Assembly (NCBI GenBank): GCA_027972325.1
Contig: JAPMOS010000046.1
Coordinates: forward strand, 118,501 to 182,500
Origin: Paratrimastix pyriformis
Lineage: Eukaryota > Preaxostyla > Paratrimastigidae
Length of the DNA stretch: 64,000 nt
Reading direction: 5' to 3'
Made by a program: the position numbers and the translations under genes
The notes under the pieces: generated by a model
What the model saw: the letters and a program-made list of their open reading frames with translations, nothing else
Databases searched by the model: none
Told to the model about the DNA's origin: nothing
Part shown: in pieces, positions 3,594-62,405 of the stretch
Layout of the letters: each line of letters starts with the position of its first letter
Position numbering within the stretch: position 1 is the stretch's first letter

Positions 3594-6500
3594 CTACTTG
3601 GGGGTTGGCTGGCGGGGGGCAGCGGAGGGCTTGAGGGCGCTGATGAAGGCGGCGATGGATTGGTTGTAGGGTGGCCGGAGGACCCCGTGCTCGGTGACAA
3701 TGGCCGTGATCAGCTCGTGGGGCGTCACGTCGAAGGCCTGCGCCCAGCCCGGGGAATGGGGGAATAGGGGAATGGAATGGGATGGAAATGGGGAGGGGTG
3801 GGAATGGGGTGGGGTGGGAATGGGAATGGGATGGGGATGGGATGGGGATGGAAGTGTGGCCAGAGGGCCAGGGCCCTCCCGGTGAGCAGCGAAGTGTCAT
3901 GAAACCGGGAGGTGGGTCATGAAACCGGGAGGTGGGTCGGGACGTCAAGCCCTGGGTGAACTGCGAAGCAGCGCCACGCTCTCACCACCAGCCACCAGCC
4001 ACCAGCCCACCAGCCCACCAGCCCACCAGCCCACCAGCCCACCAGCCCACCAGCCCCACTGCGCGCGTGGAAGGGGGAGGCACCGACCGGGTTGTACGCG
4101 GGCACGTCCGCGGGTGCGGTCAGCTTGCCGAAGCCCCGCCTGACCTCGTCGGGGTTCCGCTGCTCGATGGGGATCAGCTCCCCCGAGGCCAGCGTCGGGT
4201 CAAAGGTCGACGAGGGCGCGCACACGTAGAACGGGATGTGGTGGTAGTGCGCCAGGATGGCAACCTGCGGCGAGGATTTGACGAGGCCAAAAAAAGGCAA
4301 GGAGACAAAAATGTGCTCGATGCAGGGATCGAACCTGCGACCGTTGCCTTATTAGAGCAACGCTCTACCGACTGAGCTAATCGAGCAAGTTATGCTCATA
4401 AAGGGGCCACGTGCACTGATGTCACATCCACATCCACCAAACACGGCACACTGCTCTTGTGTGGGGTTTTACTCATCCGAGTTCTGCATCATCAGCGCCG
4501 CTTTAGGCCTCGCGACAGACAGACAGACAGACAGACAGACAGACAGACAGACAGACAGACAGACAGACAGACAGCACAGACCCCGTACGTGCCGATCTTG
4601 TTGGCGGCGTCCCCGTTGGCGGCGATGCGATCCGAACCGACGAAGACGCAGTTGATGCGGCCCTCCTTCATCACCTGTGGATGTGAGGGTGAGCGAGGAG
4701 GGAGGGAGGAAGCCGGTGGATGAGTGGGTGTGCATATCCGCGATTGTGTCTGTTCCCCCGGACATCTGTCCTCCAAGGGCTCATCGGGCCAAGAGAATTG
4801 GAAGGAAACTTCTCTTCAGATACCGCGGTCTTCCGAAAGACAGGATCGCTCGGCTGGGTGCATGGGCAGACTCCCGTGTGGATCGTGGCCCTTGTTTGTC
4901 TGGACAACGATCCAGTGGTGGGTGCCTGTGTTCTCGCCGGCGGCTCCGACTCCCCCCACCCCTGGCCCGACCACCACCTGCACAGCACCCCCAACCACCA
5001 CCACCACCACAACAACCGCCATCCCGACCAGCACCATCACCGCCATCCCCACCACCACCTGCACAGCACCCCCAACCACCACCACCACCACAACAACAAC
5101 AACTACAACAATCACTCACACCGAAACAACGACCACGGGGACCACTCCCACCGTCTCGGGCCATCTCCTTTCTGCTTGGACACCACCCGCTGACGCCTTC
5201 TTGGCCTACCTCCTACCCGAGTGGCGTAGTTTGGCTTGCGTTGGGCCGCCCATACGGGAGGAGGATCCGACCATGGAAGAGTCGCCGCAGCTTTACTTCC
5301 TCCCGTTGGAATGTCGCACTCTCGGTTCAAGGCCTTCTCACCTGCGGGTTCGAGTTCCTCGAGGGCCTGACTCATCACTTTGTGCTTGGTTGTCCATTTT
5401 CGTTCAGAGATTCGTATGACACAGCCATCTTGAAGGCTGCCGAGTGCCTACCCTGTGAAGCACAGCTGATTCAGGCAAAAAGGAACCAATTCAGAATGGT
5501 GGGCCACGCTCAGCGGCAGTGCAGTGCCGAGGCGACCCGTGCCCGCAGCTCTGGCAAGCCAGATGGCGCTGCGTGCCCGTGCCAAATATTGGATTAATAA
5601 CGATGGGGGCACATGGCCCCCAATTCAGTTATTAAGCTGAATAGAACAGATACTACACTTGATCTTAGCCACGTAGGCCGAGAAGGTATGAATTCTTCAG
5701 AATCCGGGCTGCCTCTTGAAGAAGAGACGCATGATGAAAAGTTATGGGACGAAAAAAAAAAAAAAAAAAAGGCCGGCCACCAAACAGTACAGGAACAGAA
5801 ACCGACCTGTGCGGCCATGTTGTCCGAGATGACGGTCACGTTCACCCCGGCCCGGTGCAGCTCCCATGCCGTCAGCCGCGACCCCTACGCGCACAGAGGA
5901 ACCAAATTCGACGCCCGAGTACGTGACGATGATGATGATGATGATGATGATTGGTTGGTGTTGAATGGTGCTGATGATGATGATGATAAAGATGATGATG
6001 ACAAAGATGATGATGATGGGATGGTGACGATGATGATGGGATGGTGGTGATGGTGATGGGTGGTTGGTGGTGGTGCCGCCTGGGAGGGATCGGGGGAGGG
6101 GGGGGATGAGGGGAGGGAGGATGGCGAGTTGACTGACCTGCAGCAGTGGCCGTGTCTCGTCGGAGAAGACCCGGGGGCTCAGGCCACGCTCCTGGGCCAC
6201 GTAGACGACCGAGAGGGCCGTCCCCCAATCGCCCGTCGCCAGGGCACCTGCGCATCACCATCATCGATGATGTCGGATGGGCATAACAGATGGATGGGAT
6301 GCTGACTGGATGATGATGAGGACTGGATGATGATGATGGTGATGATGATGATTGGATGATGATGATGAATGATGCGATGATGATGGGACGAGAGGGGATG
6401 AAGAAGCATCAAAAATGAACCGCGCGAAGGGATAGTGGATGGGGAGGAGGGGAGGGAGAGCCCACGGACCGGCGTTGCAGTGGGTCAGGATGCCCACATT

Positions 6501-61300: not shown

Positions 61301-62405
61301 GACCATCATCATCCAATCATCAGCATCATCCAATCATCAGCATCATCCAATCATCAGCATCCAATCATCAGCATCCAATCATCATCAGCATCATCAGCAT
61401 CAGCATCAGCATCATCCAATCATCATCATCCAATCATCAGCATCATCCAATCATCAGCATCCAATCATATCAGCATCATCAGCATCAGCATCGGCATCAT
61501 CAGCATCAGCATCATCCAATCATCATCCTCATCCAATCATCAGCATCATCCAATCATCAGCATCCAATCATCAGCATCCAATCATCAGCATCATCAGCAT
61601 CAGCATCAGCATCATCCAATCATCAGCATCCAATCATCAGCATCATCCAATCATCAGCATCCAATCATCAGCATCCAATCATCATCAGCATCATCAGCAT
61701 CAGCATCATCAGCATCAGCATCATCCAATCATCAGCATCATCCAATCATCAGCATCCAATCATCATCATCATCCAATCATCAGCATCATCCAATCATCAC
61801 CCCAGTCATCATCAGCATCATCAGCATCAGCATCAGCATCATCCAATCATCAGCATCATCCAATCATCAGCATCATCCAATCATCATCAGCATCATCCAA
61901 TCATCAGCATCATCCAATCAGCATCAGCATCAGCATCATCAGCATCATCCAATCATCAGCATCATCCAATCATCATCAGCATCATCCAATCATCAGCATC
62001 ATCCAATCAGCATCAGCATCAGCATCATCAGCATCATCAGCATCAGCATCAGCATCATCCAATCATCATCCTACATGCACACAAACAGGGCACACACACA
62101 CTCTCTCCGCAAGTGTCACACGGCTCTCCTCCTTTCTCTCTCTCCCTTGGCAAGGCCCCAGTAAGGTCCAACTGCTGGCGGTCTTATCCAAGGTCCAGCA
62201 ACAGAGCCCCGAACTGGCCGACCCGCATGAATGGGACCCCATTCGGAGGACAATCCTGGGCTACTGCGCCTGCGTCGAAGATTTGCAGGAGTTGGACGAA
62301 CCAATCTTGTGTTCCGAGGGACTGCCTGGGCCTGTGGCCCACAGGGTGATTCAGGCCATTTCTGCGGCGCTTTCAGGAGAACGAGACGTGACGAGCACGA
62401 AGTAA
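58375..62405 (+). CDS. Unidentified protein, 5 exons
   Basis: From ATG 58375 (MTASIGIALDKGSYRQQPVA). Exons fitting in phase: 58375-59298, 59868-60056, 60368-60542, 61015-~61106, ~62169-62405. Residues ~13-110 are three ~30-residue repeats (QQPVAEFLREAAAAAAPEG + GTDRL). Then a helical region (LLSALVDYTTSPEFLDFLAN; ITLAQNMGLLPLLHRIL), a Cys-containing CRACSPIMRSLVLWQL, and NCGCYCVPDTL. Exon 2 reads RLKRTEFLIRHGEATHLIEF, exon 3 STALLVFFEPEPAIPKPP, and the last exon VQLLAVLSKVQQQSPELAD...SGERDVTSTK. Codon use and clean splice phases support a real gene. I recognise no family. The 3' boundary of exon 4 is the least certain. Introns 2-4 are ATC/CAT satellite. Confidence 0.6.
59237..59425 (+). repeat. 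Duplicated exon end (NCGCYCVPDTLV)
   Basis: GGAGGCGCGGAACTGYGGCT through GCCTGACACCCTGGTCT occurs at 59256-59302 (used as the exon end) and again at 59369-59413 inside the intron, with one T/C difference. Confidence 0.85.
59572..59720. repeat. (TTG)n microsatellite
   Basis: ~49 perfect TTG units in intron 1 of the unidentified gene. Confidence 0.97.
60110..60348. repeat. (ACC)n/(ATC)n microsatellite
   Basis: Intron 2 of the unidentified gene. Confidence 0.9.
60660..61010. repeat. (ATC)n / CCAATCATC arrays
   Basis: Intron 3 of the unidentified gene; an ATCATCACCATCACCATC + ATCACCCCTG unit occurs twice. Confidence 0.9.
61300..62066. repeat. CAGCATCATCCAATCAT higher-order array
   Basis: ~770 bp of CAGCAT, CATCAG and CCAATCATCAGCAT units in nested higher-order blocks; last intron of the unidentified gene. 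Confidence 0.95.

Follow-up and report, generated by a model that had tools for sequence, protein, structure and literature searches.

In engineered U1 suppressors, a 5' splice site that has been altered regains its pairing through a base change in U1 small nuclear RNA (snRNA) (Zhuang and Weiner 1986, as cited in PMC11732430). A natural compensatory switch of this kind has very probably taken place in Paratrimastix pyriformis, a free-living protist (Metamonada, Preaxostyla), whose major spliceosome would use a changed 5'-splice-site (donor) code with U1 matched to introns starting with GTY-N-G. While the suppressors are laboratory constructs aimed at one mutated site, the situation in P. pyriformis is natural and concerns many genes together with every U1 copy found. 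The present analysis is centred on a stretch of 64,000 nucleotides (nt), referred to as the window (GenBank assembly GCA_027972325.1, contig JAPMOS010000046.1, here C399, positions 118501-182500), within an assembly of 56.06 Mb and 495 contigs.

The nearest natural case found is the diplonemid S. specki, in which the U1 5' end has likewise changed: one of its two U1 genes is conserved and the second has a C stretch at the 5' end (PMC12621601). Unlike P. pyriformis, it has kept the conserved U1, and both of its U1s are described as comparably complementary to the canonical 5' splice site (PMC12621601). Within Preaxostyla, the oxymonad Streblomastix has GT-AG ends in 20 of 21 introns, G at +5 and conserved A, U and G at +3 to +5, and its authors read the GUAUG-like start as a conserved U1 interaction (PMC1501061). 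Hence, Streblomastix shares GT-AG ends and +5G with P. pyriformis but differs at +3 and +4 (A and U), for which reason the switch is probably younger than the separation from the oxymonads. Lineage-wide drift of the donor consensus, with U at +4, is also known in the form of switches from +4A to +4U, which have been linked to the loss of both METTL16 and SNRNP27K (Parker 2023, according to the review PMC11732430). Those lineages change +4, whereas P. pyriformis turns +3 into a pyrimidine and keeps both METTL16 (Pfam match of 64.5 bits; the best match in the Protein Data Bank, PDB, is the U6 A43 methyltransferase) and an SNRNP27-type domain (34.7 bits, 29 of 56 positions). The +4U route via loss of both is therefore not applicable here.

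In Entamoeba histolytica, the donor is GTTTGT, with a pyrimidine at +3 as in P. pyriformis. No U1 snRNA is known from this species (PMC13292270), while P. pyriformis has a U1 that matches its donors. Unusual splice sites throughout the genome also occur in the larvacean F. borealis, in which about 95% of introns are non-GT/AG and changes in U2AF and in N6-methyladenosine (m6A) have been proposed (PMC13326754). In contrast to P. pyriformis, its two U1 versions have identical 5' ends, and their complementarity to canonical sites is conserved (PMC13326754). No report of a donor or U1 like those described below was found in searches of an open-access library, and prior mention elsewhere is possible; in the main text of the P. 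pyriformis genome paper, which deals with the prediction of the genes, "snRNA" and "spliceosom-" do not occur (PMC10703272). The changed code is a variant of the known system of U1 and 5' splice site and not a new system.

Donor sites in protein-supported introns

Introns were placed by a spliced aligner guided by homologous proteins, in which only a GT start and an AG end were imposed and no other splice preference was given. Eight intron-bearing segments on three contigs (C399, C24 and C332) were covered: USP, XRN1 (two parts), MRI1, PGK, eIF4A3, dihydropyrimidinase and METTL16; a ninth aligned segment, LUC7, had no intron in its matched part. The aligner placed 43 introns, 30 of which were accepted by a flank rule requiring a good gap-free alignment on either side. 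Among these 30 donors, position +3 is C in 25 and T in five and never a purine, +4 is T in 12, C in 12, G in four and A in two, +5 is G in 29 and C in one, and +6 is T in 15, C in 11 and G in four; the exon ends with G at -1 in 26 cases. The 13 introns failing the flank rule have C (nine), T (two) or G (two) at +3. From the window alone, a first-pass annotation had claimed a non-canonical GTCNG donor in place of GTRAG, and the accepted introns confirm this departure, the consensus being better written GTY-N-G. With regard to U2-type features, the GT...AG ends were imposed and all eight segments align well under them, and G at +5 is retained in 29 of 30 accepted introns, while the purine at +3 is missing from all of them; it appears in only two of the 43 placed introns, both among those rejected.

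Could the donors have been misplaced, the true sites being ordinary GTRAG sequences nearby? Such an error is favoured by the fact that the structures were derived from sequence and not from mapped reads, and by the 13 of 43 placed introns that failed the flank test. It is, however, hardly conceivable in view of two further results. Restricting donors to GTR lowered the alignment score by 86 to 435 points in all eight segments (in XRN1 from 942 to 507); restriction to GTY cost 0 to 8 points. In addition, published complementary DNA (cDNA) data are available for PGK: cDNA clones and products of 5' rapid amplification of cDNA ends (5'-RACE) were sequenced from P. pyriformis, giving a PGK open reading frame (ORF) of 1206 nt with 61.28% G+C (Stechmann et al. 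2006; PMC1665464). Removing four introns with the donors GTTTGT (52 nt), GTCGGT (51), GTTTGT (58) and GTCTGT (186) from the PGK gene on contig C24 yields an ORF with a length of 1206 nt, stop codon included, and 61.277% GC, compared with 1553 nt and 55.956% unspliced. PGK splicing thus agrees with the published cDNA in length and GC, the two features compared, and no GT-AG alternative yielding an identical sequence exists within 6 bases of any of the four junctions. The spliced model is also 100% identical to the public P. pyriformis PGK (P0121). A further PGK (P0122), encoded on a 1430-base contig and sharing 75% identity with the P. pyriformis PGK, perhaps belongs to a relative useful for dating the switch.

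For XRN1, placements were compared across six homologues used singly, which gave 152 distinct placements, mostly in the repetitive C-terminal half, where conservation is poor. Those passing in at least one reference (36, many of them in the C-terminal half) have C in 22, G in seven, T in five and A in two at +3, and those recurring in at least four of the six references (16) have C in 13 and T in three, with G at +5 in 15. Only these 16 were used, two of them lacking a good flank. A public P. pyriformis XRN1 model was absent from the best 120 protein-search matches. For USP12/46, a hand model spans 7148-13352 on the plus strand with nine exons and eight donors, and the public P. pyriformis protein P0035 matches this gene with 98% identity over 43% of the query. 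The features of the window are as follows:

7229..7272, plus strand, USP12/46 intron 1, donor GTCTGC; hand model and aligner, accepted
7337..7383, plus strand, USP12/46 intron 2, donor GTTTGT; hand model and aligner, accepted
7564..7627, plus strand, USP12/46 intron 3, donor GTCTGG; hand model and aligner, accepted
7733..7830, plus strand, USP12/46 intron 4, donor GTGCGT; hand model only
7926..8020, plus strand, USP12/46 intron 5, donor GTCTGC; hand model and aligner, accepted
8182..11861, plus strand, USP12/46 intron 6, donor GTCTGC, 3680 nt; hand model and aligner, accepted
11995..12777, plus strand, USP12/46 intron 7, donor GTCCGC; accepted, junction identical in P0035
12913..13115, plus strand, USP12/46 intron 8, donor GTCTGC; hand model, junction identical in P0035; placed by the aligner but failing the flank rule
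13837..13884, plus strand, XRN1 intron, donor GTCTGT; aligner, 5 of 6 references
14173..14235, plus strand, XRN1 intron, donor GTCTGC; aligner, 6 of 6 references
14547..14838, plus strand, XRN1 intron, donor GTTTGT; aligner, 6 of 6 references
14955..15045, plus strand, XRN1 intron, donor GTTCGT; aligner, 6 of 6 references
15480..15620, plus strand, XRN1 intron, donor GTCCGT; aligner, 6 of 6 references
15767..16231, plus strand, XRN1 intron, donor GTCGCC, without G at +5; aligner, 5 of 6 references
17574..17860, plus strand, XRN1 intron, donor GTCAGT; aligner, 5 of 6 references
18010..18367, plus strand, XRN1 intron, donor GTCCGG; aligner, 6 of 6 references
18435..18508, plus strand, XRN1 intron, donor GTTCGT; aligner, 6 of 6 references
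5885..6137, minus strand, MRI1 intron, donor GTCAGT; accepted, positions recalculated from the minus-strand segment
4675..5806, minus strand, MRI1 intron, donor GTCGGT, with the U2 snRNA gene inside; accepted
4265..4581, minus strand, MRI1 intron, donor GTCTGT, with tRNA-Ile inside; accepted
3738..4087, minus strand, MRI1 intron, donor GTCGGT; accepted
5494..5689, minus strand, U2 snRNA gene, 157 bits (gathering score 46), with a T-run and TCCCATAA element upstream

About 46 donors had been placed earlier in MRI1, USP12/46, XRN1 and profilin; the present set overlaps with them in the first three genes, whereas the profilin gene was not re-identified, two regular-expression scans for profilin having found nothing. 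The purine exception noted at that stage, GTGCGT at 7733, stands in the hand model, whereas the flat aligner put the intron elsewhere, in a placement that failed the flank test. As also noted there, the gene hosting U2 follows the pattern, the MRI1 intron in question having the donor GTCGGT.

Regarding other contents of the window, USP12/46 intron 6 (8182-11861) holds a DDE_Tnp_4 transposase ORF together with long TA-rich and CATCTGTG tandem repeats, and the U2 snRNA (5494-5689) and tRNA-Ile (4313-4386) genes, both on the minus strand, lie inside MRI1 introns on the same strand as MRI1. Leucine-rich repeat (LRR; F-box-like) proteins are suggested at 35979-38273 and 41208-43556 (minus) by weak Pfam matches that stay under the curated cut-off; similar predicted proteins were recognized by eye in two of 20 arbitrarily chosen stretches of the genome (L021 and L030).

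U1 snRNA genes with a changed 5' end

Eight loci on eight contigs match the Rfam U1 model (RF00003), all of them in full length with regard to sequence and structure (model positions 1-166; 50.8-60.2 bits, E 3.7e-13 to 2.0e-10). The 5' end is AUACAGACCUU in all eight genes, while it is usually AUACUUACCUG, nt 5-6 thus being AG. Each gene reads ATACAGACCTTG where the Rfam model has AUACUUACCUGG (four loci searched, with three U1 alignments shown), and ACAGACCU stands in all eight in place of the usual ACUUACCU; the changed end can also be written AUACAGACC and the usual one AUACUUACCU or AUACUUACC. The exact complement of the changed end is AAG directly followed by GTCTGTAT. A changed U1 5' end had been one of two causes proposed in the first-pass annotation, and a compensatory change opposite +3/+4 had been set beforehand as the test; the finding of exactly this change in all eight U1 genes supports that cause.

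In a degenerate search for the U1 end (nt 5-6 free, at most two mismatches), 11 places were found (reversed control, nine). The zero-mismatch places are the eight U1 genes, all with AG, and the other three carry two mismatches each and lie outside Rfam matches. Nowhere in the 56-Mb assembly was a match to the usual end ATACTTACCTNG found (reversed control, two). Contamination is not the reason, because one U1 gene shares contig C24 with PGK. Upstream of the U1 genes, CCCATAA is found at -59 or -60 in all eight, preceded by a T-run of at least 8 in seven (L002 has 3), and the U2, U6, U6atac and U12 genes carry the same T-run and CCCATAA element at -59 to -67. Altogether, the element was seen about 60 nt upstream at L001-L012, L040, L041, window positions 5690-5780 (minus) and L059; it is not confined to snRNA genes, because the match on contig C493 (L059) runs into an ATG, and it may serve more generally as a core promoter motif. 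The loop of U1 stem-loop I is AUCACACAGG, compared with AUCAaGAAGG in the model.

The eight loci might instead be pseudogenes or a variant class, with a canonical U1 that is missing or too divergent to detect. None of the scores reaches the Rfam gathering score of 69.5, scoring covered only 41 of 992 first-look candidates, and the pattern search could miss a canonical U1 that has diverged further, all of which would fit such an explanation. Nevertheless, it is very improbable, given that 56 Mb contain no match to the exact canonical end, that the eight copies agree over nt 1-19 and share the upstream element, and that a canonical U1 would be a poor fit to the donors.

Reach of the pattern and its proposed pairing with U1

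Beyond individual genes, donor frequencies were estimated with a small gene finder, in which the coding model took its seed from the exons of USP and no splice-site information was given, followed by Viterbi training on 264 kb, i.e. the window plus 20 arbitrarily chosen 10-kb stretches (L013-L032; contigs C441, C24 and C112). Flat, MAG/GTRAGT and yeast-like GTATGT starts converged on C at 0.72-0.74, G at 0.17-0.18 and A at 0.00 for +3, with G at 0.60 for +5 (last of eight rounds, 798-812 donors). The 20 stretches without the window (200 kb, four rounds, 480 donors) gave +3 C 0.80 and G 0.11 and +5 G 0.61, compared with +3 C 0.37, G 0.33 and A 0.23 and +5 G 0.41 in the reversed-sequence control (516 donors). 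These frequencies are blurred by errors of the gene finder, which fused neighbouring genes, and its flat pass was noisy, a strict filter keeping 87 of 369 introns (+3 C 0.76, G 0.16; +5 G 0.53). Word counts on both strands of the masked 264 kb are weaker evidence and not decisive alone: AGGTAAGT and AGGTATGT do not occur, but the 8 occurrences of GTAAGT are close to the 9 predicted from shorter words, and GTGTGT and GTGGGT have the top counts owing to repeats. The donor switch is apparently genome-wide. An earlier warning that standard gene finders would fail here holds only in part, as the public USP model P0035 starts with satellite-like sequence, whereas for PGK the public model and the spliced one agree; the genome authors had retrained Augustus on curated, transcript-supported models (PMC10703272).

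The proposed mechanism is as follows. Nucleotides 3-10 of U1 would pair with positions +6 to -2, and where nt 5 and 6, usually UU, have become A and G, G6 would read C at +3 by Watson-Crick pairing or T by wobble, A5 would preferably pair with T at +4, C4 with G at +5 and A3 with T at +6. The C/T mixture at +3 is the prediction of G at U1 nt 6. In all 30 protein-supported donors, +3 pairs with the organism's own U1, compared with none for the usual sequence; at +4, 12 of 30 pair versus six of 30, and the mean duplex energy is -8.22 versus -4.21 kcal/mol. When the 16 possible pairs of nucleotides at nt 5-6 were ranked by pairing, AG came 2nd and UU 15th. We infer that the U1 genes are expressed with the changed 5' end and that pairing with it drives donor recognition. 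The introns would have shifted to GTY-N-G, with GTCTGT as full complement and with GT...AG splicing kept. As to the order of events, multi-copy U1 would allow a mixed stage, the tolerance of G6 for C and T at +3 would ease the switch, and C at +3 would be at an advantage in a GC-rich genome. Reduced U1 proteins, if present here as well, may have lowered the dependence on an exact duplex for a time.

As to the second cause put forward in the first-pass annotation, recognition driven by +5G and U6, the U6 sequence ACGATACAGAGAAG is kept in all four copies found and the ACAGAGA box is unchanged; therefore, U6 did not co-vary. Pairing of U6 with +5G presumably still contributes. U6 would not need to change, as +5 and +6 would pair as before and T at +4 could pair with A43.

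It could be argued that U1 pairing is of minor importance, that U6/+5G or proteins choose the sites, that GTC reflects C-rich composition and that the U1 change is a neutral passenger. Intron starts are indeed C-rich (C 0.38-0.55 at +7 to +12), and U6 is unchanged, as such an explanation would have it. The zf-U1 search gave a single match (L035:1475-1700) with a WW-like segment downstream, which we take to be WBP4-like rather than U1C; hence, U1C is neither found nor shown absent. Furthermore, U1-associated proteins have been reported as nearly absent in the metamonads studied (Hudson et al. 2019; PMC6679479). C-rich intron starts can explain C at +4, but not the purine-free +3 or +5G: no accepted donor has a purine at +3, although background GT sites have A at 0.08 and G at 0.38. 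Moreover, the U1 change is confined to the nucleotides facing +3/+4, with the remaining pairing end intact in 8/8, and there is an excess of T at +4 (12/30, compared with 22/120 over positions +7 to +10 in these introns) and at +6, as U1 predicts. Such an explanation is thus unlikely, with only a small chance of being correct.

Several observations nevertheless weigh against a close match between donors and U1. At +4, C equals T in frequency (12 of 30 each), and better pairing than with AG would be obtained from a hypothetical U1 carrying GG at nt 5-6 (-10.44), so that +4 is only loosely matched. In the gene-finder set, unlike the protein-supported set, T at +4 reaches only 0.10-0.15. In the minimum free energy (MFE) fold of U1 alone, nt 4-8 pair with the Sm-site region.

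A possible minor spliceosome and wider meaning

The AAAGGA element of U6atac pairs with the minor 5' splice site, and U12-type introns have an RTATCCTT donor and a TTCCTTAAC branch site. None of the 30 accepted donors begins with RTATCC, so that by this feature the introns do not fit the U12 type. A U6atac gene (L040:1501-1633, 46.6 bits, one match) and a U12 gene (L041:1501-1675, minus strand, 44.9 bits, below gathering, with the branch-pairing GAGTAAGGAAAA intact) point to a minor spliceosome in P. pyriformis. The 5'-splice-site element of this U6atac is AGCCGA versus AAAGGA in the Rfam consensus (positions 11-16). For U11, the 39 candidates scored out of 1576 yielded no Rfam match at E<=10. 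With a promoter-plus-AGCCG pattern, 42 matches were obtained, spread over 22 distinct places (reversed pattern, none), two of which are the U12 and U6atac genes, and U11 could not be called by eye at any of 18 such loci. In the window and L001-L040, RTATCGGC was encountered 10 times, three or more of these sites being in model exons (USP, L020 minus strand and PGK); the remaining sites gave no minor intron convincing by eye. Rewiring of both spliceosomes, the major one via U1 and the minor one via U6atac, is a tentative idea that is possible but somewhat doubtful; it predicts RTATCGGC-type donors, a matching U11 and conserved U12 branch pairing.

Few RNA codes in eukaryotes are as conserved as the pairing of the U1 5' end with the intron start, since a change should break thousands of introns at once. 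With a living species in which both partners have changed, the shift of a near-universal code becomes testable, comparable to codon reassignment, and the routes to compare include a two-U1 intermediate, relaxed U1 dependence and wobble, with G6 reading C and T. The two uridines at nt 5-6 of U1 are pseudouridines in other eukaryotes, and their loss in P. pyriformis offers a natural replacement in which to examine their role. For practical purposes, gene prediction in P. pyriformis needs a species-specific donor model, and its relatives are worth checking.

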